Origin: an uncultured Spirochaetaceae bacterium
Lineage (GTDB): Bacteria > Spirochaetota > Spirochaetia > Sphaerochaetales > Sphaerochaetaceae
Direction: 5' to 3'
NCBI GenBank assembly: GCA_944390015.1
Contig: CALXOL010000021.1
Span: 1 to 37,582 of the forward strand
DNA length: 37,582 nucleotides
This document shows positions 12,901-27,560 of this stretch, in pieces (the first letter of the stretch is position 1; every line of letters starts with the position of its first letter). The translations under genes were made by a program, and so were the position numbers. The notes under the pieces are model-generated. The model was given only the letters and a program-made list of their open reading frames with translations. It had not been told where the DNA came from and searched no databases.

Positions 12901-12961
12901 ATAGAACACTCCTTTTTCCATGATAATGCAAAAGATAATCAGATGGAAATATTGATTTGTT

Positions 12962-12990
12962 TTGACCTTCCAAATGTTCTGATTTACCAT
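12962..12990 (+). promoter_or_regulatory. Possible promoter adjacent to the enoate-reductase start codon
   Basis: TTGACC (12962-12967), 17-base spacer, TACCAT (12985-12990), then only six bases to the ATG. No ribosome-binding site is visible. If used, it would give a leaderless message. The -10 matches four of six consensus bases. Confidence 0.35.
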
Positions 12991-12996
12991 TTTCAT

Positions 12997-15045
12997 ATGG
13001 ATACACGATTAGAACCTTTATTTACTCCGTGGAAAATCGGAAAGTGCGAGATTAAGAACAGGATAGTACTTACAAGTATGGGTGGTACTGATTTATTCGG
13101 ATGGATGGAGAAGAACCATTTCGATAAGGATGGTGCCCGTTTCATCATGGAAGTGGCAGAAAATAATGTCGGACTGCTTCTTCCAGGTTGCCAACCAATA
13201 TACAACCCGATGTTTGGGCAGTGGCTTCATAAGAACAAGAAGATGTATAAGGACCTTGGCGCCTGGATGCCTTCATTCCATAAGAGCGGAGCTAAACTAT
13301 TTGTTCAGCTCACAGCTGGATTTGGACGTTCTTTTACGATAAGCAGCATGATGGAGATGCTTTACAATACTCCTATCATCAGGACAATTTCTAAGCCGAT
13401 AATGAATCTTGATAGAATCACGGCATCCGCAAGCCCATCCCCAAACAGATGGTCGGACAAGGTCCCATCCAGGCAGATGACCAGGGATGAGATAAAGGAG
13501 ATGGTGTTCTCTTTTGCGGAAAGTGCCCTGATGCTTCGCGATGCAGGGGTGGATGGAGTCGAGATCCATGCCGTACATGAGGGCTACCTGTTGGATCAGT
13601 TCACACTGAAGTATGTGAACAAGAGGAATGACGAGTATGGCGGATCGATGGAGAACAGATACCGCTTTGCAATTGAGATTGTCGAGGCCATAAAAAAGAG
13701 ATGCGGTGATGACTACCCCGTCTCTCTGCGCTACAGTGTTCTTTCCAAGACGAAGGATTTCAGAAAAGGCGCACTTCCGGGAGAGGAGTATGAAGAGGTA
13801 GGAAGAGACATGGAAGAGTCTGAAAAAGCCGTAAAACTGCTTGAAGAGGCAGGATACGACATGCTCAACTGTGATAATGGAACATATGATGCATGGTATT
13901 GGGCTCACCCACCTATCTACATGCCTGAGAACTGTAATCTTGAGGATGTAGAGCATATCCGAAAGTTCGTAAACATCCCTGTGGTTGCAGCAGGAAGGCT
14001 TGATCCATATACGGCAGCCGAAGCAATAAGGGAAGGAAGGCTCGATGGTGCAGGATTTGCCAGACAGTTCCTTGCAGATCCCGAGTGGATTACAAAGCTG
14101 AAAGAAGATAGGGGTGAGGATATCAGGCCATGCATCCTCTGTCATAACGGATGTTTCAACATGTGCCACTATAAAGGCGTTCCAAACGACCAGGATTTAT
14201 CTGACAGCCTTCACCTGGCACGCTGTGCGGTAAACGCCGAGATGATGCAATGGGAAAAGCATTATATCAAGAAAACCGATAGACCTAAGAGAGTCGCCAT
14301 CATCGGAGGCGGTATCGGAGGAATGGAGAGCGCAAGGGTATTGAAGCTCAGAGGACACGAGCCTGTGATATACGAAAAGAGTGACAGGCTCGGAGGCACG
14401 TTCATTGCCGCAAGCGCAGAGTCCTATAAGGGAAAACTCAGGGATCTGCTTAAATGGTATATAAGGCAGATGGAGACTCTTGGAATCGAAGTACGGTACA
14501 ACACTGAGATCTCAGGCACATCCACTCTTGATGCCGATGCCATCATCATAGCAACGGGAACTAAGGCGAAAAAGTTGAATATCCCAGGTTTTGATAGAGC
14601 AATAGAAGCCTGTGAATATCTTAATGGTACACCGGTCGGCGATACTATCGCTTTAATCGGAGGTGGTCTTACCGGATGCGAGGTGGCGTATGAACTCGCC
14701 CTTGAAGGAAAGAAAGTAAGCATCATTGAGATGAAGGATGACATCATCGCCCAAAAAGGTGTTTGTCTTGCAAACAGCTCCTATCTCAGAGAATGGTTCG
14801 AACTGAACAAGGTTCCCGTATATCTTAGTGCAAGGGTAAAAGAAATAAGAGAGACTTCGGTTATCATCAGCACTGCGGATGGAGGAGAAAAGAGCATAGA
14901 GGCAGAGAGCGTGATAAGCAGCATAGGATACGATCCGGCACCTCTTGAGATGCAGAAAAAGGCATATCTCGTAGGAGACTGCCTAAGCGTTGGAAACCTC
15001 AGAAGCGTCATATGGAGAGCATACGAGGTTGCAATGAAAATATGA
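12997..15045 (+). CDS. 2-enoate reductase-like Fe-S flavoenzyme (old yellow enzyme family)
   Basis: This 682-residue cytoplasmic enzyme probably reduces an activated C=C double bond with NAD(P)H. The N-terminal FMN barrel (about 1-350) begins LEPLFTPWKIG and contains DGVEIHAVHEGYLLDQF and the enoate-reductase-like block GTYDAWYWAHPP. A four-cysteine cluster motif follows, CILCHNGCFNMC with a later cysteine in ARCAVN, for a 4Fe-4S centre. The C-terminal half has two nucleotide-binding folds, AIIGGGIGGMESARVL and ALIGGGLTGCEVAYEL, for FAD and NAD(P). The arrangement matches clostridial 2-enoate reductase, 2,4-dienoyl-CoA reductase and BaiCD/BaiH; the GTYDAWYW block favours the first. It converges on the aconitase X genes, suggesting a role in the same pathway. 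The start follows the family N-terminus. Confidence 0.85.
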   Translation: MDTRLEPLFTPWKIGKCEIKNRIVLTSMGGTDLFGWMEKNHFDKDGARFIMEVAENNVGLLLPGCQPIYNPMFGQWLHKNKKMYKDLGAWMPSFHKSGAKLFVQLTAGFGRSFTISSMMEMLYNTPIIRTISKPIMNLDRITASASPSPNRWSDKVPSRQMTRDEIKEMVFSFAESALMLRDAGVDGVEIHAVHEGYLLDQFTLKYVNKRNDEYGGSMENRYRFAIEIVEAIKKRCGDDYPVSLRYSVLSKTKDFRKGALPGEEYEEVGRDMEESEKAVKLLEEAGYDMLNCDNGTYDAWYWAHPPIYMPENCNLEDVEHIRKFVNIPVVAAGRLDPYTAAEAIREGRLDGAGFARQFLADPEWITKLKEDRGEDIRPCILCHNGCFNMCHYKGVPNDQDLSDSLHLARCAVNAEMMQWEKHYIKKTDRPKRVAIIGGGIGGMESARVLKLRGHEPVIYEKSDRLGGTFIAASAESYKGKLRDLLKWYIRQMETLGIEVRYNTEISGTSTLDADAIIIATGTKAKKLNIPGFDRAIEACEYLNGTPVGDTIALIGGGLTGCEVAYELALEGKKVSIIEMKDDIIAQKGVCLANSSYLREWFELNKVPVYLSARVKEIRETSVIISTADGGEKSIEAESVISSIGYDPAPLEMQKKAYLVGDCLSVGNLRSVIWRAYEVAMKI

Positions 15046-15071: not shown

Positions 15072-15521
15072 TCAGCGCTCCACTTTTACAGAGCCGTCCT
15101 CCATTACTGTTATCTTATCACCGGTTTGGACATATGAGAGAAAATCATCACCCAGCCCATCTATCGTAGGCATGGGGTTATCCGTCCAGACTGCTGAAAG
15201 CACAGCTCCAGCTGCGGCCAAGGAGTCTATCTCCTTTGAGAAAAGAAGACAAGCCGGCTGCCTGCCCATGCACGAGGCACAGTAGAGGACAAGGCCTCCC
15301 GTAGTAGACCCGATTGTCTGCGGCAGACAGAGTGCTTTTCCAGCCATCTCCCTCTTATACAGATCAGCATTGTTCTGGTCAGAGCATTTACCTTTCTTAT
15401 CACCAAACATGAGTGAATGCTGATAGCTGGCAAGCGTATTGAATCCACCTTTTGAGACTAGTGCCTCCGCAGAGACGCTACCTTTTACTACGACTCTTCC
15501 CTTGAAAATCCTTTCGCTCAT
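15072..15521 (-). CDS. Aconitase X small (swivel-domain) subunit, DUF126
   Basis: A 149-residue swivel domain that closes over the active site of the large subunit. The family block LPQTIGSTTGGLVLY is present, its GST serine corresponding to the conserved catalytic-site serine of this domain. It is followed by QPACLLFSKEIDSLAAAGAV and the final GDKITVMEDGSVKV strand pair. Characterised aconitase X enzymes are dehydratases acting on cis-3-hydroxy-L-proline or, in archaea, on mevalonate 5-phosphate. The substrate here is not evident. The start codon overlaps the large-subunit stop by four bases (ATGA), so the two are made together as a two-chain enzyme. Confidence 0.9.
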   Translation of the reverse strand: MSERIFKGRVVVKGSVSAEALVSKGGFNTLASYQHSLMFGDKKGKCSDQNNADLYKREMAGKALCLPQTIGSTTGGLVLYCASCMGRQPACLLFSKEIDSLAAAGAVLSAVWTDNPMPTIDGLGDDFLSYVQTGDKITVMEDGSVKVER

Positions 15522-16786
15522 AACGCACCTCCCGTGATGATATCCAAAAGCTTCTCTTCCCTGAAATACCTTGCAGAGGTATACGTCCTGAGCTTATTGG
15601 AACATGTGACTACCGGCATTGAACCGCACATAGGATTATTCATATACATCAAAGGACATATGTATGAGAGCTTAACGCCATACCCTGTAAGCCTTCCATA
15701 CTCCTCGCTCTTCTTAAATTCCTTTAAGACCGCTGGAGCCGCCGTCATCACAGTATCAATTGAAACATTTTTCATTCCTTTGCTCTTAAGGGCATCTCCA
15801 ATCCTGTTCGTCCAGCTTACAAGCTGTGCATACGACAGATGTGGGCATCCGATGAAAGCCAGCTTCGGATGTGCATTTTTATCCTTCCATATTATAGGAT
15901 AATTCATCTCCGTCGCCTTAAGAACCTCATCATCGATTACGAAGGTCTTATACCCCTCTTTCAGCAGCGCCCTTCCCTCTTCCACAGCCTCAGGAGTCAG
16001 GGACTCCACATGATAGAGGCCGACAGCGCCATTGGAGGCAGTAGCAGCGCCAAAGTCTTTGAAATAAGCTTTCGCTTCGTCATCCAATGAGGTGAAATAT
16101 CTGTCCATTCCAACAATGTATGGAACGTCTTCCATAACCTTCATTCCGATTGCGGAACCAAGAAGCTGAGCTTCGGGCTTTCGACTTGTTCTTACTTCAA
16201 TCAGCCAATCCGCTTTCCTTCCCTCATCCGTAAGAAGGCCAAAATAAGGTACGCAGCCTACTATTGAGCCGAAAAGGTCGAGGATTCCGCTGTTTCGGTT
16301 ACAGCGAGCTCCAAGTATGCTGTTCGCATATACGACTGCTGAGCTCTCAGCCCAGGATAGGATATCTCCCTTCTTCGGACAGTTTCCAACCTCATCCATG
16401 TAACACGTGCATGTATATGCGTCATCGGAGAGAATACCGAGCTTCTTAAGCTGTGCATCGTAATCCTTCTGTTTTGAATACATCACCTTGAAGAAGATGT
16501 TCTGAATAAAATTCCTTGGTACGACATCCTCAAGTGGTCTTGGGTCAACGGAAAACTTCTGGGAAGAAATAGCTCCACCTTCGATCAGAGTATCCATCAA
16601 ATCATAAACCGGCTTCATCACCGATAATCCGAAACTTGTGACCAGATGTCCGTACTCCCCCGTGATATCCGCCATACGGGTTGAACCGAATGTTTCTCCG
16701 TACATTATCAAGGTCTTCATCACCTTAGCTTTGACATCCCCTTCTTTTCCGTCAAGGATGTCCTGCTGTCTTTTTGTCAGTTCCAT
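15518..16786 (-). CDS. Aconitase X large (catalytic) subunit, DUF521
   Basis: This 422-residue catalytic subunit belongs to the aconitase superfamily branch that dehydrates hydroxy acids. The family start MELTKRQQDILDG, the YGETFGSTRMADI block, DPRPLE near residue 81, YTCTCYMDEVGNCP (cysteines about 126, 128, 136), ANSILGARCNRNSGI (cysteine about 162) and the C-terminal MNNPMCGSMPVVTCSNK are all recognisable. Several of these cysteines probably hold the Fe-S cluster. I start at ATG 16786, with AGAGG about eight bases upstream; an upstream in-frame start would place translation inside the terminator of the preceding operon. A terminator separates it from the flavoprotein gene, so it may have its own promoter or depend on read-through. 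The substrate is unknown. Confidence 0.9.
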   Translation of the reverse strand: MELTKRQQDILDGKEGDVKAKVMKTLIMYGETFGSTRMADITGEYGHLVTSFGLSVMKPVYDLMDTLIEGGAISSQKFSVDPRPLEDVVPRNFIQNIFFKVMYSKQKDYDAQLKKLGILSDDAYTCTCYMDEVGNCPKKGDILSWAESSAVVYANSILGARCNRNSGILDLFGSIVGCVPYFGLLTDEGRKADWLIEVRTSRKPEAQLLGSAIGMKVMEDVPYIVGMDRYFTSLDDEAKAYFKDFGAATASNGAVGLYHVESLTPEAVEEGRALLKEGYKTFVIDDEVLKATEMNYPIIWKDKNAHPKLAFIGCPHLSYAQLVSWTNRIGDALKSKGMKNVSIDTVMTAAPAVLKEFKKSEEYGRLTGYGVKLSYICPLMYMNNPMCGSMPVVTCSNKLRTYTSARYFREEKLLDIITGGAL

Positions 16787-16831
16787 ATTGTTTCCTCTTT
16801 TTCCAATGTTAACACAAAAATGCTCAATAAT

Positions 16832-16862
16832 AAAAAAACAGCCTTGCATTTCTGCAAGACTG
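16832..16862 (-). terminator. Intrinsic terminator after the flavoprotein gene
   Basis: On the minus strand CTTGCA and TGCAAG (16853-16858 with 16843-16848) pair around a four-base loop, extended by CAG/CTG beyond one mismatch, and are followed by seven T (16832-16838). It lies just behind the flavoprotein stop codon and should end or attenuate the liv-to-flavoprotein transcript before the aconitase X genes. Confidence 0.75.
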
Positions 16863-16867
16863 CAAAA

Positions 16868-18787
16868 TTAATATACGCATTTATCCTCTCTGTAACGCGC
16901 CCAAACGTTCTCAAAGAAATCATCCTCATCAGGGATAGGACGGGGTGATCTCCTGCTGAATATCAGAGCCCCGGACTCATACCGCACTTCCTGTATCTGG
17001 GATTCTATGCTCTCATCCTCCAATGAATATGTGAATCTCGAATCAAGATTTGGAATATGAATAGGTCCTGATTCATCCGTATATAGGGCAGAGCCCCGGC
17101 TTTTCCCACCTTCAGCAAGGTAGTCAATCATGCTTGCAAGGTATACTTTCTGAGAAATCAGAGCATTTCTGAGTTCAAAGAGGATCCAAAGCTTGGAGGG
17201 GCTATCTACTCGAATGTCCTCAAAGGAATCAAGATATTCGTTGACCTCCATGAGTGCCTTTTCAAGTAAGCTTCGCTCCCTTATGGCAGCACCGTTAAGG
17301 CTCATGAGCATCCTCACCTTCTTATAAACACTCTCAGCATCAAGAGTACCGTTTAAAGCATTCTTCATGATGTGGCATATCTCTCTTATCTGGCTTTCAA
17401 GTCCTTTTGTATCTGCTTTCCAGCCGCCCCTCCTATGCTGTAGAATCCAGTTTGATGCCCGTCTTGAGCCACACTGACCGGCATTAAGAGCAGACCCGCC
17501 AGGGCGATACACTCCATGTGATGCTGCAACTTCTCCTACGGGGAAAATGCCTTTTATGTTCGACTGCCACCAGGAATCTATGGCAAGCCCCCCGTTGTTG
17601 TGCTGCGCCGATAAAGATATCTCAAGATACTCCCTCGCAAGGTCAACCCCCTTATCGAGATAGAACTCATAAGCAGGCATATTCAACTTCTTAAGACGGC
17701 AAATCGGAGTTTCCAGTGTCGCACTAGATGCCTTAAGGTAACTTGAAGCCTCCTCAGAAAGCTCATCCCATGGCACTTCCATAAAGTCAGGATTATGCAT
17801 GAAATCGAGATAAACACGTCTTTTCTTCTCTAACTCGAGATAGCATAGCATGTCTATGATTGATGACCCGGACTCGAGCTTTCTCACATCAAACGGCCAC
17901 TGATAGCCTTTTAAGAATATCAGGGAGAGCATCTTCTCCCTCTTATAGTCATACTCAGATAGGAAGTCATGCTCAATCCCATTCTCATCTATTGAGACGA
18001 AACGGGGAATCACCTGCATGTAGGATCCTGACACGTTCCAGCGAGGGTGAACAGATGCAAGGCCATACTGCCACTCAGTTAGGTTCTTGCCCATGCATCC
18101 TGCTTCGAATGCGATTCCTGTCGCACCAAACTGACTTTCTGGATATACGGACATGGAATATATTCCAGCAGGCCCCCCAGTAGCAAAGACAAGAGAGCGG
18201 CAGAAGATAACCATGCCATCTCCCGTCTTACGGTTTATCAGGATAAGGCCTCTAAGCTCATTATCCCTGACAAGAATCCTAACAGCCTGATAGCCGTCAA
18301 GCATCTCAATATTAAGAGTTTCCGCCTCCTTCTCGAGGGCCTCTGTCATGAAACGAGAAGTATAAGGTCCTGCACTCGTTGCTCTTCTATGAGGATCATG
18401 ATCTGTCTTATAACCAATATACTCCCCATATCTGTTTACGGGAAACGGAACACCCATGTCTGCAAGACGTAAAAAGGAAGCGGAAGAAAGAGATGCCTCG
18501 CATAATGCGATATCACCATCAACACACCTGCCTTTAAAAAGATCCAGTGCAAGAGCTTTCACGCTATCCGGGTCATCACCGGCAAGAGAGAGCTTATAAT
18601 ACGTCTGTTTATCAGAACCGGTATTGCGGCTCGTTCCGGCCTTTCTTGCCTCACTGACGAGCAGAAGATCATCCTCTCCACCTTTTTTCAAAAGGCATGC
18701 GGCATTATATCCGGCAGCCCCTGTTCCAAGGACAACGGTCTCCACCTCATAGGCCTTCATACCATCTACGATACCAAAATCTCTCAT
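16868..18787 (-). CDS. Fumarate-reductase/succinate-dehydrogenase-like flavoprotein
   Basis: A 639-residue soluble FAD enzyme. The N-terminal Rossmann motif VVLGTGAAGYNAA, the ATGGPAG element near residue 210 and the C-terminal QHNNGGLAID...GIFPVGEVAA...GGSALNAG blocks define the fumarate reductase/L-aspartate oxidase flavoprotein superfamily, which oxidises or reduces CH-CH bonds next to carboxylates. The N-terminal NTGSDKQTYY differs from true SdhA/FrdA, and no Fe-S or membrane-anchor subunit is encoded nearby. Electrons must therefore go to a soluble partner, possibly the neighbouring old-yellow-enzyme homologue. The start ATG overlaps the dehydrogenase stop (TAATG) with AGAGG five bases upstream. 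It is the last gene before the terminator, and its substrate is unknown. Confidence 0.8.
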   Translation of the reverse strand: MRDFGIVDGMKAYEVETVVLGTGAAGYNAACLLKKGGEDDLLLVSEARKAGTSRNTGSDKQTYYKLSLAGDDPDSVKALALDLFKGRCVDGDIALCEASLSSASFLRLADMGVPFPVNRYGEYIGYKTDHDPHRRATSAGPYTSRFMTEALEKEAETLNIEMLDGYQAVRILVRDNELRGLILINRKTGDGMVIFCRSLVFATGGPAGIYSMSVYPESQFGATGIAFEAGCMGKNLTEWQYGLASVHPRWNVSGSYMQVIPRFVSIDENGIEHDFLSEYDYKREKMLSLIFLKGYQWPFDVRKLESGSSIIDMLCYLELEKKRRVYLDFMHNPDFMEVPWDELSEEASSYLKASSATLETPICRLKKLNMPAYEFYLDKGVDLAREYLEISLSAQHNNGGLAIDSWWQSNIKGIFPVGEVAASHGVYRPGGSALNAGQCGSRRASNWILQHRRGGWKADTKGLESQIREICHIMKNALNGTLDAESVYKKVRMLMSLNGAAIRERSLLEKALMEVNEYLDSFEDIRVDSPSKLWILFELRNALISQKVYLASMIDYLAEGGKSRGSALYTDESGPIHIPNLDSRFTYSLEDESIESQIQEVRYESGALIFSRRSPRPIPDEDDFFENVWARYREDKCVY

Positions 18788-19554
18788 TACAGCCTCTTGA
18801 TATGGAAACCACCGTCAACATCTACATAGTTTCCCGTGGTATAAAGGAAATGATCGTCTGCGAATGCGGAGACGGCCATTGCGATATCCTCTGGATAGCC
18901 CCATCTTGCAATAGGGAAGGCCCCATCGGCTATGAGCTTGTCATATTTGGCTGAGACGGTATTCGTCATATCGGTGGCAATAACACCTGGCCTTATCTCA
19001 TGCACAAGGATACCCTTCGAGGCAAGACGGTCAGCATATAACGTTGTAAGCATGCTAACCCCGGCTTTTGACACGCAGTACTCGCCTCTCGATATCGATG
19101 ATACCTCAGCCGAGCATGATGAGATATTGATTATTGTTCCTCTCTTCTTACCAAGCATCTCTTGCTCAATCATCTGCTTTGCAACAAGCTGTGTAAGGAA
19201 CATGTTCCCCTTGGTATTTATAGAAAGGACCCGGTCAAAGCTCTCTTCGCTCATTTCAAGAAGATCCGTCCTCTCCTTAGGGGCGACTCCGGCGTTATTA
19301 ACGAGTACGTCGATACGACCGAATGCCTCAACGGTCTCCTTTACTATGCGGATCCTATCATCGTGGTTGCTTATATCCGCCTGAATATACTTCCAGTCGA
19401 TATTCTCTGAAGTAAGAATATCCAAGTTCTTCTGATTCTTCTCCTGAGCCCCTGTTGCTACGACTGCGACAGAAAATCCGTCAAGCCCAAGCTGTCTCGC
19501 GATTGCAAATCCAATTCCACGGCTCGCACCTGTTATCAAAGCTGTCTTCTTCAT
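18787..19554 (-). CDS. Short-chain dehydrogenase/reductase
   Basis: A 255-residue NAD(P)-dependent oxidoreductase of the classical SDR type. It has the cofactor motif TGASRGIG near the N-terminus, DVLVNNAG in the middle, and the catalytic serine in NISSCSA with Tyr and Lys in GEYCVSKAG. The C-terminus GNYVDVDGGFHI is typical of the FabG-like branch. It interconverts an alcohol and a ketone on an unknown pathway intermediate. ATG 19554 lies three bases after the upstream stop, with AGAGG seven bases before it; a TTG one codon earlier is less likely. It is coupled to both neighbours. Confidence 0.9.
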   Translation of the reverse strand: MKKTALITGASRGIGFAIARQLGLDGFSVAVVATGAQEKNQKNLDILTSENIDWKYIQADISNHDDRIRIVKETVEAFGRIDVLVNNAGVAPKERTDLLEMSEESFDRVLSINTKGNMFLTQLVAKQMIEQEMLGKKRGTIINISSCSAEVSSISRGEYCVSKAGVSMLTTLYADRLASKGILVHEIRPGVIATDMTNTVSAKYDKLIADGAFPIARWGYPEDIAMAVSAFADDHFLYTTGNYVDVDGGFHIKRL

Positions 19555-19557
19555 CAA

Positions 19558-20910
19558 TCAACCTCTAAAATTCTCGGGTAAGTCTTTTTTCTCAACCATG
19601 AACTCCCTATAGAAAGGAAGGAATGTCTCTGGATATCTGATTACGCACCCCGTAGGTTTATGCGCTCTTATGAGATCCCCGCATTTACCGCATGTCAGGC
19701 ATACCCTCTTGGGATTAATACGCCCCTCCTTTATTATCTCATTCGGAAAATCAGGATCTGCAAAAGCCATACGTCCAAAAAGGAATCCATCAGCATAATT
19801 ACCCGCAACAGCCCCGGCTGCATAAAGATCCGAATACTGTCTCAGATAAGTAGGAGCAGAGGCATAGACTGCCATATCAGGAACACTCTCCTTTATCTCC
19901 TTCACCCCTTGAATCATCCTTGCCACCCCTATGAGAGGGTGTTCATCCGGCACGTATTTGCCCATATCGAACGGTCTTACTATATGTGTCGTCGCATATG
20001 GATTTCCCATCGTTATATCCACAAATGTCAGGCCAAGCTCATCATGAAGCTCCTTTACAAGGCGCTTTGGCTCGCTTAAATCCATAGCACCATCCTCAGC
20101 CTGACCAAAACCTCTCGAATAGGCGGGATAGCCATCATAGATTCCGATTCTAGAGACAACGGAGAATGACGGACTTTCATAAGCCTTAGCCGCTTTGATT
20201 GAGTTCTTTAAAAGTCTTGTCCTGTTCTCATAGGAGCCGCCATACTCTCCTTTCCTCTCATATGCGGAAGCGACTTCCTGGAAAAGATATCCATGGCATG
20301 ATTTGATATCAACGGCATCGAATCCCGCCTCTTTTGCTAAAAGTGCGGACTTTCCCGTCATCTCCTCTATATATTTCAGATAATCATCGGAGACGATACA
20401 CGAATCATCTGCGGCACGGAATGTCTCCAGCCATTTATTCCTCTGTGCAATTAGTGGGGCTGGCTTATTATCCGGGTTAGAATAGCGCCCTGAGTGGTTG
20501 GACTGCATGATCAGATACGGCTCGAATCCATTCTTTCTGATTCCTGCCTCCTTAACACGCTCATTAAGACGTTTGAACGAATCGACATTATCCTCTGTGA
20601 TAAGCAGCTGCGTCTTTGAAGAACGCCCTTCCTCTACGATGGATATCGCCTCATACCAGATTAGCCCTGCTCCTCCCTCTGCCTCACGTACGTAGCGGGC
20701 CTCCGTATACTCCGAAGGTCTTCCGTCCTCAGTCGAATCAGCACCTTCCATCGGAGCTATCCCCAACCTGTTTTGAAGCTTGATGTTACTTATTTCGAGC
20801 GGTGTTGCAAGAATCGAGGTATCATAGGCGAATGGTAGCGATATGCCAAGCTCCCTGCATTTCTCAAGAAGCTCTTCTAATGTCTTATAATGGAATTTCT
20901 CATGACTCAT
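19558..20910 (-). CDS. NADH:flavin oxidoreductase (old yellow enzyme family), short form with Fe-S motif
   Basis: A 450-residue FMN-barrel enzyme. After an N-terminal extension of about 35 residues come NRLGIAPMEGADS, an altered QSNHSGRYSNPDNKP substrate-loop region, AVDIKSCHGYLFQE and EYGGSYENRTRLL, the barrel signatures. Near the C-terminus CLTCGKCGDLI and a later cysteine (PTGCVIR) resemble the Fe-S site of the enoate/dienoyl-CoA reductase group. The FAD/NAD domains that follow it in the larger homologue at 12997 are absent. It may therefore receive electrons from another protein, for example the flavoprotein two genes downstream. This is a distinct clade from the first homologue, so the two probably act on different double bonds. 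Confidence 0.85.
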   Translation of the reverse strand: MSHEKFHYKTLEELLEKCRELGISLPFAYDTSILATPLEISNIKLQNRLGIAPMEGADSTEDGRPSEYTEARYVREAEGGAGLIWYEAISIVEEGRSSKTQLLITEDNVDSFKRLNERVKEAGIRKNGFEPYLIMQSNHSGRYSNPDNKPAPLIAQRNKWLETFRAADDSCIVSDDYLKYIEEMTGKSALLAKEAGFDAVDIKSCHGYLFQEVASAYERKGEYGGSYENRTRLLKNSIKAAKAYESPSFSVVSRIGIYDGYPAYSRGFGQAEDGAMDLSEPKRLVKELHDELGLTFVDITMGNPYATTHIVRPFDMGKYVPDEHPLIGVARMIQGVKEIKESVPDMAVYASAPTYLRQYSDLYAAGAVAGNYADGFLFGRMAFADPDFPNEIIKEGRINPKRVCLTCGKCGDLIRAHKPTGCVIRYPETFLPFYREFMVEKKDLPENFRG

Positions 20911-20925
20911 AAACTCATTTCCTCA

Positions 20926-21300
20926 TCATAATGTCCCGTCCATCTCTTTTTTCCAGTGATCGACTACAATCTGTGGTGCATAGACGAACATGAGAGTCAT
21001 CTTCTCCTTACCTGTGTTTCTCAGCCCATGCTTTATCCATGGCGTGATGAATACGTATTCACCTTCCCCGATGGCCCTTGTCTCATCGCCCACGGTTATC
21101 TCCCCACATCCTGAGAGCACAGTGTAGGATTCAACAGTCTCATGGTCATGGACAGGGATGGATCCACCAGGCTCAATCTCGACATAGCCCTGGCAGAACT
21201 TCTCCCCCTTTATCGCTCCGTTTTCCCCGATCATCACATGAGTACGCCTACCCGTGGGAAACTCCATGTATGGGATTTCATGAATATTCCTTATCTCCAT
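20926..21300 (-). CDS. Single-domain cupin protein
   Basis: A 124-residue beta-barrel with the two cupin motifs: PGGSIPVHDHETVESYTVLS, giving two histidines and a glutamate as metal ligands, and PWIKHGLRNTG, giving the third histidine. Small cupins like this act as isomerases, epimerases, decarboxylases, lyases or sensors, so the role here is open. ATG 21300 was chosen because GGAGG lies five bases upstream; it follows the livF stop by one base. Its place between transporter and catabolic enzymes suggests it works on the imported compound. Confidence 0.85.
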   Translation of the reverse strand: MEIRNIHEIPYMEFPTGRRTHVMIGENGAIKGEKFCQGYVEIEPGGSIPVHDHETVESYTVLSGCGEITVGDETRAIGEGEYVFITPWIKHGLRNTGKEKMTLMFVYAPQIVVDHWKKEMDGTL

Positions 21301-21301
21301 A

Positions 21302-22015
21302 TCAGCCTCCAAGATAAGCTTTCCTTACATCATCTGAATTCAAAAGATCATTGCCGCTTCCCTCAAGCTTAATCCTGCCATTTTCAAGGACATAGGCATA
21401 ATCGCAGATGGAAAGGGCCTTCTTAGCATTCTGTTCAACCAGCAGTATCGTGATTCCCGATTCCCTGATTCTCTGTATTATGTCATAAATCTGGGATACG
21501 ATTATCGGAGCAAGCCCCATTGATGGCTCATCAAGAAGAAGGATCTTAGGATGGGACATCAGGCCGCGGCATACCGCAAGCATCTGCTGTTCTCCTCCAG
21601 AGAGCGTTCCAGCGAACTGATTGCGCCTCTCCCTAAGAATCGGGAAAAGATCGTACTGTCTTTCCAGATCTTCTCTTATCTTGCTCTTATCTGAGAGATA
21701 TGCGCCTACAAGAAGATTGTCCTCAATAGTAAGGCCTGAGAACGTCCTTCTCCCTTCTGGGACGTGGATGACACCCTTCTTGACTACCTTGTATGGCTTC
21801 TTGGGAAGCTCCTCTCCCTCGAATTCAATCGTACCCTTAAGTGGTTTGACAAGGGCACTTACTGCCTTGAGAAATGTTGATTTACCAGCACCGTTTGCAC
21901 CGATTATGGAGCAAATCTCACCTTTTCTGACCTCTACATTGACATCTTTGAGTGCCTCGATATGCCCATAATTCACGCAGAGGCCACTAACCTTCAACAA
22001 TACATCATGACTCAT
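21302..22015 (-). CDS. livF: Branched-chain-amino-acid-type ABC importer, ATPase LivF
   Basis: A 237-residue ATP-binding subunit with Walker A GANGAGKST, signature LSGGEQQM and Walker B ILLLDEPSMGLAP. The HVPEGRRTFSGLTIEDNL stretch is typical of LivF. It works with LivG to energise the LivHM channel. Its ATG overlaps the livG stop by four bases. Liv systems also carry urea, aromatic acids, bile-acid-like and other small carboxylates, so a true amino-acid substrate is not assured. Confidence 0.93.
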   Translation of the reverse strand: MSHDVLLKVSGLCVNYGHIEALKDVNVEVRKGEICSIIGANGAGKSTFLKAVSALVKPLKGTIEFEGEELPKKPYKVVKKGVIHVPEGRRTFSGLTIEDNLLVGAYLSDKSKIREDLERQYDLFPILRERRNQFAGTLSGGEQQMLAVCRGLMSHPKILLLDEPSMGLAPIIVSQIYDIIQRIRESGITILLVEQNAKKALSICDYAYVLENGRIKLEGSGNDLLNSDDVRKAYLGG

Positions 22016-22776
22016 TGCTCCGCTCCTAAGTAAGCTTCGATAACCGCCTGGTTATGCTGCACCTCATCCGCAGTTCCCACTGCAATCGTCTCTCCGAAAT
22101 TCTGTACGTGTATAAGGTCTGAAATACTCATTACCAGATCAAGACGATGCTCGATTAAAAGGATTGCGAATCCAAATTCAACGGAAATTCTTTTTATAAG
22201 ATCTGTCAGCTCCATTACCTCAGTAGGGGTTAAGCCAGCTGCAGGTTCATCAAGAAGAAGTACCTTCGGCTCGCACATCAAGGCTCTGGCTATCTCAACC
22301 TTCCTCTGATTTCCATAAGAGAGATTCTCCGGCCTCTCATCCTTCTTATCGGCCATGCCTACTACTTCGAGGTATTTTCTGGCAAGCTCTCTTCCTCTTT
22401 TCTCCTCTTTAAATCTCTTGGGAGTCGGGATGAGTCCGCCGAATACGGAGTACTTACTCTGCGGATCAAAAGCACAGAGGACATTCTCCTCGATTGTAAG
22501 GCCTCTGAAGATTCTTATATTCTGGAATGTTCTTCCAATCCCCAGCCTGGTTATCTTGTATTGTGGAAGCCTCGTTATGTCCTCTCCACTGAGCACAACG
22601 GATCCTGAATCCGCCTGATACACCCCGGAGATGGTATTGAATATAGTAGTCTTTCCCGCACCGTTCGGCCCGATTATTCCGTGTATCTGCCCGGCCTCAG
22701 CTTCCAGAGAGAAATCAGCAATAGCCTTGATTCCACCAAAATTCTTACTAATATGCCTTATTTCCAGAAGTGCCAT
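22012..22776 (-). CDS. livG: Branched-chain-amino-acid-type ABC importer, ATPase LivG
   Basis: A 254-residue ATP-binding subunit: Walker A GPNGAGKTT, signature LSYGNQRKVEIARAL, Walker B LLLDEPAAGLTP. The GRTFQNIRIF element near residue 85 is characteristic of LivG. AAAGGAG precedes the start codon and the gene begins one base after the livM stop. It pairs with LivF as the motor heterodimer at the cytoplasmic face. Confidence 0.93.
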   Translation of the reverse strand: MALLEIRHISKNFGGIKAIADFSLEAEAGQIHGIIGPNGAGKTTIFNTISGVYQADSGSVVLSGEDITRLPQYKITRLGIGRTFQNIRIFRGLTIEENVLCAFDPQSKYSVFGGLIPTPKRFKEEKRGRELARKYLEVVGMADKKDERPENLSYGNQRKVEIARALMCEPKVLLLDEPAAGLTPTEVMELTDLIKRISVEFGFAILLIEHRLDLVMSISDLIHVQNFGETIAVGTADEVQHNQAVIEAYLGAEQ

Positions 22777-22777
22777 G

Positions 22778-23656
22778 TTATCTCTCCTTTACCTTTCTCT
22801 GCTTCCTGTTAAAACGCATAAGAGCCCTTCTCATGTTCTTTGGGGTAAGCTCCCACTCTCCGAATACTCCCTTCGGCTTGAAGTTAAGGATGAACAGTAC
22901 GAGAACGGCATATACGACCGCCCTGTACTTATTAAGCGCCTGCATGTACTGAGGAAGGAACGTAAGGAACGCACCACCGAAGATGGAACCGGTAAGGCTG
23001 TTCACTCCGCCGAAGAATACCATGATTACCCAGTCAGCGGATTTCTTCCACCCAAAGTCCGTCGGTCCTACATAGCCGATATTGAAGGCAGAGAGGCATC
23101 CAGCTAATGCCGTCATTGCGCAAGAGAGGAGGAATGCTATCATCTTGACCCTGGATGTGTTGATTCCCATTGCCTTGGCAGCAAGCTCATCGCTCTTGAT
23201 CGCTATGCACTGCCTACCGTACTTGCTGCATTTGAAAAGCGCAGTAAGAATTATGACGAGAATCGCAATGATTAAAGCTATCCACACATTTACACGTCTC
23301 GGTATACCGATAAGACCGAATGCACCGCCAGTGTACTGGCTTAGAAGGAGAATCAACTGGGCAATGGATTCTCCGAATCCAAGCGTGACAAGCGAGATAT
23401 AATCCCTTCTCAGCCTTACGACAGGAAATCCGATCACATAACCGACACAGACTGCGAAGGCAATAGCAAGGAGGAACGCCAGATACATGTTCATGCCCGT
23501 ATTGAGAACCAATAGTCCTGAGACATAAGCACCGATTGCCATGAAAGCGGCAGAACCCAGGGAGAACATACCCGTCAGACCAGTAAGGATATATATACCG
23601 CACACCGATACCAGTGTGATACAAACCTGCGTCAATACATAAAGAAATAGATTCAT
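22778..23656 (-). CDS. livM: Branched-chain-amino-acid-type ABC importer, permease LivM
   Basis: A 292-residue membrane protein with about eight hydrophobic segments. The motifs LTGMFSLGSAAFMAIGAYVS and FGFGESIAQL-like LVTLGFGESIAQ, followed by ALAGCLSAFNIGYVGP and VIMVFFGGVNSLTGSIFGGA, are the standard LivM coupling and channel blocks. The positively charged C-terminus ends KRALMRFNRKQRK-like. It forms the channel with LivH and starts 12 bases after the livH stop. Confidence 0.92.
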   Translation of the reverse strand: MNLFLYVLTQVCITLVSVCGIYILTGLTGMFSLGSAAFMAIGAYVSGLLVLNTGMNMYLAFLLAIAFAVCVGYVIGFPVVRLRRDYISLVTLGFGESIAQLILLLSQYTGGAFGLIGIPRRVNVWIALIIAILVIILTALFKCSKYGRQCIAIKSDELAAKAMGINTSRVKMIAFLLSCAMTALAGCLSAFNIGYVGPTDFGWKKSADWVIMVFFGGVNSLTGSIFGGAFLTFLPQYMQALNKYRAVVYAVLVLFILNFKPKGVFGEWELTPKNMRRALMRFNRKQRKVKER

Positions 23657-23668
23657 GCCTTTTCCCCC

Positions 23669-24541
23669 TTATGCCTTCTCCTGGACATTGCTTCCAGCAA
23701 TACCCTGAGGACGGATGAGAAGGAATACGAGCATCACGGCAAATGATGCTATTGTAGCCCATCCTGAACCCATTGTACTTAGGAAGATCGCTTCCATTAT
23801 CCCTAAGAGCATCGCACCTATCACAGCTCCTGTGAGGCTTCCAAGTCCACCTATGACAGAGGCTATGAATCCTTTTACAACAAGGCTTCCCATGGTTGCT
23901 GTCAAAGTATACTTAATACCGAGGAAGCATCCAGCAAGACCTCCGAATATCCCTGATATGATGAATACCGCCTGGATTATAAGCGTTGCATTTATTCCCA
24001 TCAGCTGAGCTGTATCCCTGTCGAAGGAGACGGCACGGATTGCTCTTCCGATACTGGTCTTCTGTATTACGAATGCAAGGGCAAGCAAAGCAGCAACGCT
24101 GATTACAAGCATTATTATGTTCTCTTTTGAGATGACTGTCTGAAAAAGCTGTATCGTAGGAGTTTCAAAGAAGTTCGGGTAAACATAGAAGTTCGTCCCC
24201 GCTTTAAGCGTTACAAGCCCCTCATACAACGACCCTAAGGTTATCGACGATACAAAGAAATAAGTTGAAGGTGAATGGTTTTTAAGAATCCTTCTAAAGC
24301 CTACGAACTCACCTATGAGGCTGATCAGGGCTCCTGCAAGAGCTGAGCAGATCAGCGTCGGCACAAGTCCCCACCCCTTGGAGGCGACGAGAAAATATGC
24401 GATGAATGCAGATGCGGTCATTGTCGCACCATATGAGAAATTTGAGAATTTAAGAATATTGAAAACCAAGGCGAATCCGATTGCGATAAGAGCATATACG
24501 GTGCCTGTGGAGATTCCGTTTATGAGAATCTGGAATGACAT
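23669..24541 (-). CDS. livH: Branched-chain-amino-acid-type ABC importer, permease LivH
   Basis: A 290-residue membrane channel subunit, from ATG 24541 (MSFQILINGISTGTVYALIA) with AAGGA nine bases upstream. A longer in-frame start would lie inside the upstream hairpin. Family blocks include the first helix TGTVYALIAIGFALVFNILK, FSYGATMTASAF and the coupling-region GGLGSLTGAVIGAMLLGIME. Gene order K-H-M-G-F is the classical one. Confidence 0.92.
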   Translation of the reverse strand: MSFQILINGISTGTVYALIAIGFALVFNILKFSNFSYGATMTASAFIAYFLVASKGWGLVPTLICSALAGALISLIGEFVGFRRILKNHSPSTYFFVSSITLGSLYEGLVTLKAGTNFYVYPNFFETPTIQLFQTVISKENIIMLVISVAALLALAFVIQKTSIGRAIRAVSFDRDTAQLMGINATLIIQAVFIISGIFGGLAGCFLGIKYTLTATMGSLVVKGFIASVIGGLGSLTGAVIGAMLLGIMEAIFLSTMGSGWATIASFAVMLVFLLIRPQGIAGSNVQEKA

Positions 24542-24559
24542 ATGTGCTATCCTTTCTGA

Positions 24560-24586
24560 ATGTGGGCTCCGTAATGAAGCCCACAT
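24560..24586 (-). other. Stem-loop between livK and livH
   Basis: ATGTGGGCT (24560-24568) and AGCCCACAT (24578-24586) form a perfect nine-base stem with a nine-base loop and no T tract. Such structures after binding-protein genes commonly protect the 5' part of the mRNA or partly stop transcription, so that more binding protein than permease is made. Confidence 0.6.
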
Positions 24587-24608: not shown

Positions 24609-25757
24609 TCAGTTTGCAGCTGGATACTGCTCGAGCATGACAGGAGTCGTTCCATCATACTTATACATGAACATAGGAGTACCGAGAACAGGCATGTGTG
24701 TCTCTGGATCCATCTGGATTGTTCCTGTAAGACCTGTGTACTCAGCAGTCTCAAGGGCCTGAGCAACCGTAGCACCGTCTGTGCCGACCTCTCCCATTAC
24801 CTTTGCTGCCATCATCATGGAATCGTATCCGAGGAAGTACTTGTTAGGAGCACCTACATTCTGGCATCTCTCTTCGATGGCCTTTGCTGTAGCCTCTTCA
24901 TATACATCGATGTTGTTGATGTAATAAACGTTAGAGCAGTCCGCTCCTACCTGGGTATTGAAAGCAGGTGCGCCATCAAGACCTGTTATGATAGCACCTT
25001 TGAAGCCGAGGCTGTCGCAAGCCTTCTTAATGAGTACGAGAGGTGCTGTATAGTTCGGGCAGTAAATTGCATCAACCCCAGCGTTTATAATAGGCTGGAT
25101 GAGCGTGTTGATATCGGTCTCTGTTGAGTTATATCCGATGATGTTCTTATCTTCAAGAGTACCGCCGTTAGCTCTTACGGTCTCTACGAATGGATCGAGA
25201 AGGGATACGGAATACGAGTTATCCTGAGTATAGAAAACTCCGAAATTCTTAAATCCGTTCTTCATTGCGAACTCAGCCATGATCTGACCCTGTACTACTG
25301 TTGAAGGCTGTGCGCAGAATAAATAGTCATAGAGGTTGCCATTATTATCGGTATAGCACGTCGGATCAACAGCGAAAGTAATCATTGGAATGTCATAGCT
25401 TGCCGTAGTAGCCTTAAGACCTGATACGATATTTGCAATCGGTGGTCCGAAAAGGAAATCTACCTGGTCAACAGTGACAGCCCTGATGTATGCTGCGATT
25501 GCAGTATTTACATCACCTGCGGTATCGTACTCGATGTACTTTACCTCAGCACCATTAATGCCGCCAGCAGCGTTAATGTCTGCAATAGCATCCTCTACTC
25601 CCTTCTGAACAGAAAGGCCGAGAGTAGCTGTAGCTCCGGTAGTGTCCTGAAGAATACCGATTAAAATCGAATCAGAGGAACCACTCTCTGCTGCACCACC
25701 TGCAAAGACTGTCGTCATCATGCAGAGTACCATTAGAATTGCAAGGATTTTTTTCAT
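24609..25757 (-). CDS. livK: Branched-chain-amino-acid-type ABC importer, periplasmic binding protein LivK
   Basis: A 382-residue substrate-binding protein. The signal peptide MKKILAILMVLCMMTTVFA is followed by GGAAESGSS, a mature N-terminus seen often in Sphaerochaeta and Treponema binding proteins; no lipobox cysteine is present. The family-I periplasmic fold shows ILQDTTGATATLGLSVQKG, INAAGGINGAEV, LFGPPIANIVSGL and the ITFAVDPTCYT region. ATG 25757 has AAAAGGAG upstream. The ligand cannot be predicted: Liv-type proteins bind amino acids, amides and aromatic or short carboxylic acids. It is the first structural gene under the LacI-type operator. Confidence 0.92.
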   Translation of the reverse strand: MKKILAILMVLCMMTTVFAGGAAESGSSDSILIGILQDTTGATATLGLSVQKGVEDAIADINAAGGINGAEVKYIEYDTAGDVNTAIAAYIRAVTVDQVDFLFGPPIANIVSGLKATTASYDIPMITFAVDPTCYTDNNGNLYDYLFCAQPSTVVQGQIMAEFAMKNGFKNFGVFYTQDNSYSVSLLDPFVETVRANGGTLEDKNIIGYNSTETDINTLIQPIINAGVDAIYCPNYTAPLVLIKKACDSLGFKGAIITGLDGAPAFNTQVGADCSNVYYINNIDVYEEATAKAIEERCQNVGAPNKYFLGYDSMMMAAKVMGEVGTDGATVAQALETAEYTGLTGTIQMDPETHMPVLGTPMFMYKYDGTTPVMLEQYPAAN

Positions 25758-25796: not shown

Positions 25797-25816
25797 TCAT
25801 GGGAACGTTCCCATGA
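25797..25816. promoter_or_regulatory. LacI-family operator, perfect 20-base palindrome
   Basis: TCATGGGAACGTTCCCATGA reads identically on both strands and has the central CG of LacI/GalR-family operators. It covers the predicted start point of the leftward liv operon, 39 bases before the livK ATG, and lies 126 bases downstream of the LacI-family regulator gene. Binding would block transcription of transporter, cupin, reductases and flavoprotein together. I saw no second copy in the window. Confidence 0.85.
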
Positions 25817-25817
25817 C

Positions 25818-25848
25818 TTTATATTACCCCATATTCTGGATATTGCAA
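25818..25848 (-). promoter_or_regulatory. Promoter of the liv catabolic operon
   Basis: TTGCAA (25843-25848) with TATAAA (25818-25823) at a long 19-base spacing, or TAATAT (25821-25826) at 16 bases. Either choice puts the start point inside the palindromic operator. Confidence 0.5.
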
Positions 25849-25941: not shown

Positions 25942-26958
25942 TTAACAGACAGTATCACGCACCATCAGGATGGGATCGAACACATAATCCTCAATGGTGT
26001 TCGCCTTTTTCCCTTCAATCATGTCGATTAGAACATCTACCGCTTTTTTCCCCATCTCCTTAAACGGCTGACCTATCGAAGTCAGCTTCGGGATGAATAG
26101 CTCAGATATAGGAACGTTATCATACCCTATCACTGAAATATCCTGAGGAACTTTTATGCCCATCTCATTCAGGGCATGGATGGCATCGACAGCTATGTTA
26201 TCGCTGGCGCAGAAGAGCGCATCAACATCGATTCCTGATTTTATCTTCTCCGGTATGATTTTTGTCGCGACCCTTTCCGAACCCCTATAGCCATACCAAA
26301 TAAGGTCTGGATCTATTTTAATACCATGCTTTAATAACGTATTCACATAACCTTCATAGCGGTCTTTATAAAGTTTCAGGTACTCCTGCCCCTGTAAAAA
26401 AGCAATCCTTCTCTTTCCCTTGCTAAGCAGGTATTCGACTCCCATTGCAGAACCCTTGGCATTATCCAGCCGTACGGAAGTCGCACTTACCCCATCCGTT
26501 CTTAAAAGATTCACACATGGAATGCCATCCCTTACGACCTCGAGAATCTCCTCATTCTCCTCTACATTAAGCAATGCAGTCGAGAAAATAAAGCCATCGA
26601 CATTCCTGCCTTTGAGCTTTTTCACGTACTCTTTTGCTATTTCCTTGTCTTCCTGGATGTCACAGAGAAGAATCGTATAACCCCTCTCCCTTGTTTCGAC
26701 CTCCATCGCCTGTATTATCGCAGGATAGATCATGATTTCTATGTTTGGAACGAAGAACGCTATCGTCTTACTACATTGCGTCTTTAGACCTTTTGCGAAA
26801 TAATTCGGCTGGAAATCGAGGGATTTGGCACATTCCAGAATCTTTTTCCTCGTATCTGGGCTGACATGGGCATCATAACATAAGGCACGGGATACCGTGC
26901 TTTTAGAGAATCCCGTTTTCTGTGCGATATCCTTAATTGTAACGTTGTTCCTGCCCAT
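25942..26958 (-). CDS. LacI/GalR-family transcriptional regulator
   Basis: A 338-residue repressor. The N-terminal helix-turn-helix VTIKDIAQKTGFSKSTVSRA is classical, followed by the hinge (FQPNYFAKGLKT), which would contact the central CG of the operator. A periplasmic-binding-protein-like sensor domain follows, with IAFFVPNIE, GRNVDGFIFS, RRIAFLQGQ, CASDNIAVDAIHAL and VIGYDNVPISELF. Unlike most LacI proteins tied to sugar genes, it adjoins an amino-acid-type importer, so its effector may be a non-sugar. It is transcribed in the same direction as livK, with a 184-base gap holding operator and promoter. Its own start lacks a well-spaced ribosome-binding site, and a TAATAT box ends eight bases before the ATG. 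Confidence 0.93.
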   Translation of the reverse strand: MGRNNVTIKDIAQKTGFSKSTVSRALCYDAHVSPDTRKKILECAKSLDFQPNYFAKGLKTQCSKTIAFFVPNIEIMIYPAIIQAMEVETRERGYTILLCDIQEDKEIAKEYVKKLKGRNVDGFIFSTALLNVEENEEILEVVRDGIPCVNLLRTDGVSATSVRLDNAKGSAMGVEYLLSKGKRRIAFLQGQEYLKLYKDRYEGYVNTLLKHGIKIDPDLIWYGYRGSERVATKIIPEKIKSGIDVDALFCASDNIAVDAIHALNEMGIKVPQDISVIGYDNVPISELFIPKLTSIGQPFKEMGKKAVDVLIDMIEGKKANTIEDYVFDPILMVRDTVC

Positions 26959-27013: not shown

Positions 27014-27526
27014 TCATAATATGGTAACTTGTCCTTCAAGGCCCATTTCCTTCACGCTTGATGCATATATATCCTTATCATGTGCAGAAAAACAGACAAC
27101 AAACACATCCAGCTTACTTTTTATCAGCTCAGAAAGGGCTATCTTGGAAGCACGCTCCTTAGGAAAACCATATACGCCACAGCTGATAAGGGGGAATGCA
27201 ATACTTTCAATCCCTTTTTCTTCTGCGATTTTTAGAGACTCAACATAGCAGCTTCTTAAAAGAGCATCCTCATCCCTATTGCCACCACGCCATACAGGAC
27301 CTACCGTATGGATGACATATTTTGCAGGGAGGCTGTACCCTTTGGTAATTTTGGCCTTACCAGTCTCGCACCCTCCAAGAGTCATACACTCTCTAAGCAA
27401 ATCAATACCGGCTGCAGCATGAATGGCCCCATCAACACCACCTCCACCAAGAAGCGAGTTATTTGCAGCATTGACAATCGCATCAACCTTCATCTTAGTA
27501 ATATCAGAAACTAAAACCGTAATCAT
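27014..27526 (-). CDS. Macrodomain protein, probable O-acetyl-ADP-ribose deacetylase
   Basis: A 170-residue macrodomain that binds ADP-ribose and in MacroD/YmdB relatives removes acetyl or ADP-ribose groups. Landmarks in order are [47 protein letters not shown] and [18 protein letters not shown], all strongly conserved in the MacroD-type class. ATG 27526 is preferred because the longer in-frame ATG at 27547 lies inside the terminator hairpin of the upstream rubredoxin gene. No ribosome-binding site is visible, so expression may rely on read-through or a leaderless message. It could belong to NAD-linked deacylation or ADP-ribosylation reversal; no partner is nearby. Confidence 0.9.
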
Positions 27527-27530
27527 AGAG

Positions 27531-27560
27531 AAAAATAAAGCGGCCATACTTTCAGGCCGC
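27531..27560 (-). terminator. Intrinsic terminator after rubredoxin
   Basis: GCGGCC (27555-27560 read leftward) and GGCCGC (27540-27545) form a six-base GC stem with a nine-base loop, followed by TTTATTTTT. It separates the rubredoxin gene from the macrodomain gene and rules out the longest macrodomain start. Confidence 0.7.

Follow-up and report, generated by a model that had tools for sequence, protein, structure and literature searches.

A LacI-family gene and a livK-like gene in an uncultured Spirochaetaceae bacterium are separated by a short gap that holds a perfect 20-bp palindrome. We asked which protein would read this palindrome, which genes it would control, and why a LacI-type regulator should stand ahead of an importer of the amino-acid type. 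The window, that is the whole stretch of DNA analysed, is 37,582 nucleotides long. A sequence-only reading had proposed a LacI-type operator on the start point of a long liv operon, and had regarded such control of an amino-acid-type importer as uncommon.

The palindrome and the operon downstream of it

The palindrome at 25797-25816, TCATGGGAACGTTCCCATGA, was read directly from the sequence, with its centre at C|G; no other perfect palindrome in the 37.6-kb window reaches 16 bp. For DNA of the composition of the window, the chance expectation for perfect 20-mers is about 0.04-0.05 per window and about 1.6e-4 in the lacI-livK gap. This gap is 184 bp long, and the lacI (25942-26958) and livK genes that border it both lie on the minus strand. 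The centre of the palindrome lies 49 bp upstream of the livK start codon (25757), which fits the usual spacing of LacI sites, mostly 30-140 bp ahead of the start codon (PMC4052901). With its even symmetry, central CG and inner sequence TGGGAAC|GTTCCCA, the site agrees with the LacI-family operator backbone TG..A.C|G.T..CA, as given in PMC2978694. The features of the locus are as follows, each with its basis.

25942-26958, minus strand: LacI-family regulator, specificity residues K-S (FSKSTVSRAL); family profiles, residue comparison
25821-25848, minus strand: putative promoter-like TTGCAA-16-TAATAT, weak (8/12 bases)
25797-25816, no strand assigned: predicted LacI-type operator with halves TCATGGGAAC and GTTCCCATGA; palindrome, conservation, residue/site match
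24609-25757, minus strand: livK-like (HAAT) substrate-binding protein; profile and solved-structure searches
23669-24586, minus strand: livH-like permease; profile searches
22778-23656, minus strand: livM-like permease; tblastn synteny, named by similarity
22012-22776, minus strand: livG-like ATPase; tblastn synteny
21302-22015, minus strand: livF-like ATPase; tblastn synteny
20926-21312, minus strand: cupin; Cupin_2
19558-20910, minus strand: OYE-type flavin reductase with C-terminal Cys motif CLTCGKC-x11-C; profile and solved-structure searches
18787-19557, minus strand: short-chain dehydrogenase (SDR); PRK12745 above cut-off
16868-18787, minus strand: FAD_binding_2 flavoprotein, fumarate reductase/L-aspartate oxidase-like; profile and solved-structure searches
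16838-16863, minus strand: intrinsic terminator ending the operon; terminator scan, fold z -4.65

From livK to the FAD protein, nine minus-strand genes follow one another nearly without gaps; solved-structure searches with the operon and regulator proteins returned broad families only. Just after the fad gene stands the strong terminator, its 61-nt fold reaching -22 kcal/mol. The long operon of the earlier reading therefore holds from livK to fad but loses aconitase X, which lies beyond this terminator with its own ribosome-binding site and a start near 16786. Membership of aconitase X in the operon was also rejected from the relatives: in G002, a second species of the same genus, the cassette is present without a following acnX gene on its contig, and in other relatives acnX, OYE2 and the macrodomain gene are retained where the cassette is absent.

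The promoter-like pair consists of TTGCAA at 25848-25843 and TAATAT at 25826-25821, and both elements are partly conserved in G002. On the minus strand 4 nt separate the end of the pair from the palindrome, so that a regulator bound to the palindrome would cover the livK start point. The match is below the cut-off of the promoter scan, so the start point itself is a predicted one, and the earlier placement of the palindrome upon it, though plausible, depends on this weak match.

A genome-wide search for the site was expected in the sequence-only reading to define a regulon and perhaps reveal missing pathway genes. Neither was obtained: the inner 14-mer, TGGGAACGTTCCCA, occurs once among the 34 contigs (2.19 Mb) of the genome, there is no place with one mismatch, and the three places with two mismatches all fall within long coding frames. 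No further convincing site was thus detected, and the predicted regulon comes to one site and one operon. The 350 bp upstream of lacI contained no good palindrome, and therefore no second copy that would mark autoregulation. A candidate auxiliary operator within lacI (26109-26122, three mismatches) was dismissed, because it encodes a conserved GYDNVP motif, which G002 has as well.

Conservation of the site and its match to the regulator

Close livK relatives were detected in 5 of 296 related genomes (largely MAGs), the genome of the window included, and a LacI-type palindrome stands at the head of the operon in all five. The predicted operator is conserved upstream of the orthologous target operons, where its absence would have counted against the sequence-only reading. 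In G002, with an orthologous lacI (77% identity) and livK (89%), TCATGGGCACGTTCCCATGA is located at nearly the same distance before livK and TTGCAATAT is also kept; the operon is spread over two contigs (L057, L180), so that its continuity is presumed. In G224, of another genus, cupin-livKHMGF-OYE-SDR-FAD is preceded by a 24-bp palindrome that contains the exact 12-mer GGGAACGTTCCC; no regulator for it was detected in this 62% complete genome, in which the operon lies at a contig end. The remaining two genomes carry TTATGCAAACGTTTGCATAA (G068) and TTGCAAACGATTGCAG (G149) before livK. Beyond these orthologues, TGCAA(A/T)C|G(A/T)TTGCA-type sites were found upstream of livK in clostridial operons with a LacI gene (G208, G201, G200, G199), and imperfect sites of the TGCAA(A/T)C type in G202 and G203; in other clostridial operons the sites are poor or absent. 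L211 and L213 have imperfect upstream sites only, and in 4 of the 12 wider operons examined for upstream sites (L122, L128, L148, L215) poor half-sites or none were detected.

The adjacent regulator carries a LacI-type helix-turn-helix (PF00356, 48.3 bits against a cut-off of 27) followed by a periplasmic-binding-protein-like sensor domain (PF13377, 113.6 bits). Its score with the TreR equivalog model TIGR02405, 106.9 bits, is far below the NCBIfam cut-off of 357, indicating that it is not TreR, though it shares the DNA code of TreR. According to the code of Camas and colleagues (PMC2978694), the two residues before TVSR (AA-15/AA-16) correspond to half-site positions 5 and 4. These residues are Lys-Ser in the regulators of the window and of G002. 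In the other cassette regulators they are Val, Ala, Ile or Pro with Ser, and Pro-Gly in one; the cassettes with V/A/I/P-S bear TGCAA(A/T)C sites. TGGGAAC and TGCAAAC differ exactly at half-site positions 5 and 4 (GG versus CA), as this code predicts, and GG accompanies K-S in the window, in E. coli ahead of treB, and next to the K-S LacI genes of relatives.

The exact 14-mer is present in 11 of the 296 related genomes, and the reversed control string in seven. A Lys-Ser LacI gene adjoins it in eight of the eleven, the window included; the other three are accounted for by one Thr-Ser LacI, the G224 operon and one place without LacI context. At the Thr-Ser locus (L219, G115:C1:2550385), the 14-mer lies between the LacI gene and, directly after it, what reads as a gene for a sugar-type binding protein, in the same layout as in the window.

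TreR of E. coli K-12 also has Lys-Ser before TVSR, and the K-12 sequence has the same 12-mer as the window between treR and treB. The two regulators are only distantly related, TreR being on a long branch, and they differ in target: TreR controls trehalose PTS genes, whereas the predicted target here is a Liv-type ABC operon. A literature search for binding data on TreR found no source that could be used. In the tree most other Lys-Ser regulators form a separate, well-supported clade and TreR is placed elsewhere; the grouping of the window regulator with other cassette LacIs is weakly supported (89/57). From these separate placements the Lys-Ser/TGGGAAC pairing seems to have more than one origin, the branches being long and exact placement unsure. 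Unrelated regulators of spirochaetes and E. coli thus share both residues and the 12-bp site, and the regulator/operator pair serves as a clean natural test of the LacI recognition code as published.

Predicted mode of control and competing explanations

Judged from the conservation in all five operons and the match between Lys-Ser and the site, the palindrome is very probably the operator of the adjacent LacI-family repressor, controlling one liv operon; the tie between site and neighbouring regulator proposed in the sequence-only reading is supported to this extent. A dimer of the Lys-Ser LacI would bind TGGGAAC|GTTCCCA with its hinge helices inserted at the central CG, and would block RNA polymerase at the livK start by steric repression. 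One nine-gene transcript, livKHMGF-cupin-OYE-SDR-FAD, ending at 16863-16838, would then be silenced until LacI is released by a carbohydrate-like effector, probably either the compound taken up or an early product. Four elements of this model are inferred: that LacI binds the site, that it represses instead of activating, where transcription starts, and what the effector is. The circuit would be local, one site for one operon; about 90% of LacI regulons are local (PMC4052901). The regulator shares with the PurR/CcpA class the LacI helix-turn-helix, the periplasmic-binding-like sensor and the operator backbone; that class is global, whereas this regulator looks strictly local.

Three other explanations were considered. 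The palindrome could act in RNA as a hairpin, either as the terminator of lacI or as a 5' leader stem protecting or regulating the liv mRNA. It was listed by the terminator scan, and on the minus strand an 8-pair stem is predicted (-13.2 kcal/mol, z -2.8, 46 nt). No T run follows it, however (GTATTCTTGG), and an A-to-C change in G002 breaks one palindrome pair while the remainder is kept. Nor would a hairpin explain why identical letters stand next to unrelated Lys-Ser LacI genes and ahead of treB in E. coli; we consider this role very improbable. Equally slight is the chance that the site is a LacI-type operator serving another LacI-family protein of the cell: the genome has four LacI-family genes, but K-S is found only in the adjacent regulator, the other three having T-A, A-A and K-A at the specificity positions, and site and regulator travel together in G002.

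Somewhat less remote, though still unlikely, is that the adjacent LacI binds but activates, or that a branched-chain amino acid is the signal for the liv operon. The transporter does belong to the HAAT/Liv fold family, but a site immediately downstream of a promoter fits repression. The operon contains no amino-acid enzymes, and in relatives the redox trio stands beside genes for an IlvD/Edd dehydratase, a psicose-epimerase-like protein, heparinase or Gfo/Idh/MocA proteins. Repression by the adjacent Lys-Ser LacI is the reading that we prefer.

The importer, its pathway and the setting of the cassette

The importer can be assigned to the HAAT superfamily only, since the curated Liv models score far below their cut-offs (PRK15404, 56.5 against 477 bits; LivH, 108 against 379 bits); its annotation as 'liv' should not be equated with amino-acid uptake. 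The same operon in Faecalispora additionally encodes an IlvD/Edd-type dehydratase, a psicose-epimerase-like TIM barrel and a Zn dehydrogenase of the polyol type. In G045, genes for a sugar-type ABC binding protein, a lyase of the heparinase II/III type and Gfo/Idh/MocA oxidoreductases precede the OYE-SDR-FAD trio, and in Rhizobium a relative of the flavoprotein is grouped with Gfo/Idh/MocA, sugar kinase and aldolase genes. Because relatives of the operon include genes for a sugar-acid dehydratase, an epimerase, a polyol dehydrogenase and carbohydrate transporters, a carbohydrate-like effector, the usual kind for LacI, is more likely than an amino acid, and the substrate is probably sugar-acid- or cyclitol-acid-like, the better guess from these neighbours. 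With sugar-acid-like enzymes around the importer in relatives, LacI control is not surprising, and the oddity pointed out in the sequence-only reading largely dissolves; among LacI groups with an assigned pathway, 96% control carbohydrate metabolism (PMC4052901).

Clostridial and spirochaete liv-OYE-SDR-FAD operons, such as those of Faecalispora jeddahensis and Tepidanaerobacter sp. GT38, resemble the window in having a LacI gene in or beside the operon and, in most, a LacI-type palindrome at its head. They differ in the residues V/A/I/P-S with the site TGCAAAC|GTTTGCA, and the clostridial operons in extra dehydratase, epimerase and alcohol dehydrogenase genes. The chances appear evenly balanced that the operon under this switch is an undescribed, horizontally moving catabolic cassette, in which a HAAT importer for a carbohydrate-derived or cyclitol acid is joined to an OYE-SDR-FAD redox trio, and in which LacIs and operators changed together (V/A/I/P-S with TGCAAAC, K-S with TGGGAAC) during spread between Firmicutes and Spirochaetes. 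A search of the literature for a pathway with these genes, and for the function of the flavoprotein, yielded no description. The switch itself is of an ordinary, known type; of greater interest is the uncharacterised pathway. The compound that releases the repressor would give a direct handle on the substrate of this widespread OYE-SDR-flavoprotein pathway.

In other species of the genus acnX, OYE2 and the macrodomain gene lie together and the block is missing, so that the stretch from lacI to the FAD gene looks like an inserted, self-contained cassette. At the junction between macrodomain gene and aconitase X (window positions 15072-16849 and 27014-27547; L049, L050, L051) the cargo differs by species: nothing in G036 and G039, where the two genes are adjacent; a TRAP transporter with a two-component system, named from their open reading frames, in G045; and the lacI-liv-FAD cassette in the window. 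This junction may be a site of cassette exchange.

The window holds, at 12943-15045, a second and larger OYE/FAD reductase, BaiCD/bilirubin-reductase-like at scores below cut-offs; it is oriented towards aconitase X, and the two are conserved together throughout the genus. At its C-terminus the OYE of the operon (19558-20910) bears a CxxCxxC-x11-C motif resembling the 4Fe-4S site of 2,4-dienoyl-CoA reductase, but it is without the FAD/NAD half of that enzyme; it may pair with the separate FAD protein.

Flavoproteins of the FAD_binding_2 type (16868-18787 in the window) with SDR and OYE partners were seen in at least 573 confirmed candidate stretches (L079-L158) from Clostridia, Spirochaetes, Halanaerobium and some Actinomycetes; the transporters differ among them. 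A distant relative of the flavoprotein (34% identity) is found in E. coli between ytfB and rplI (L240, CP054241.1 599027-605076), near genes for a 3-ketoacyl reductase, a sugar phosphate isomerase, an enoyl-CoA hydratase and a CoA transferase; its contig was deposited as a plasmid, yet carries core chromosomal genes.
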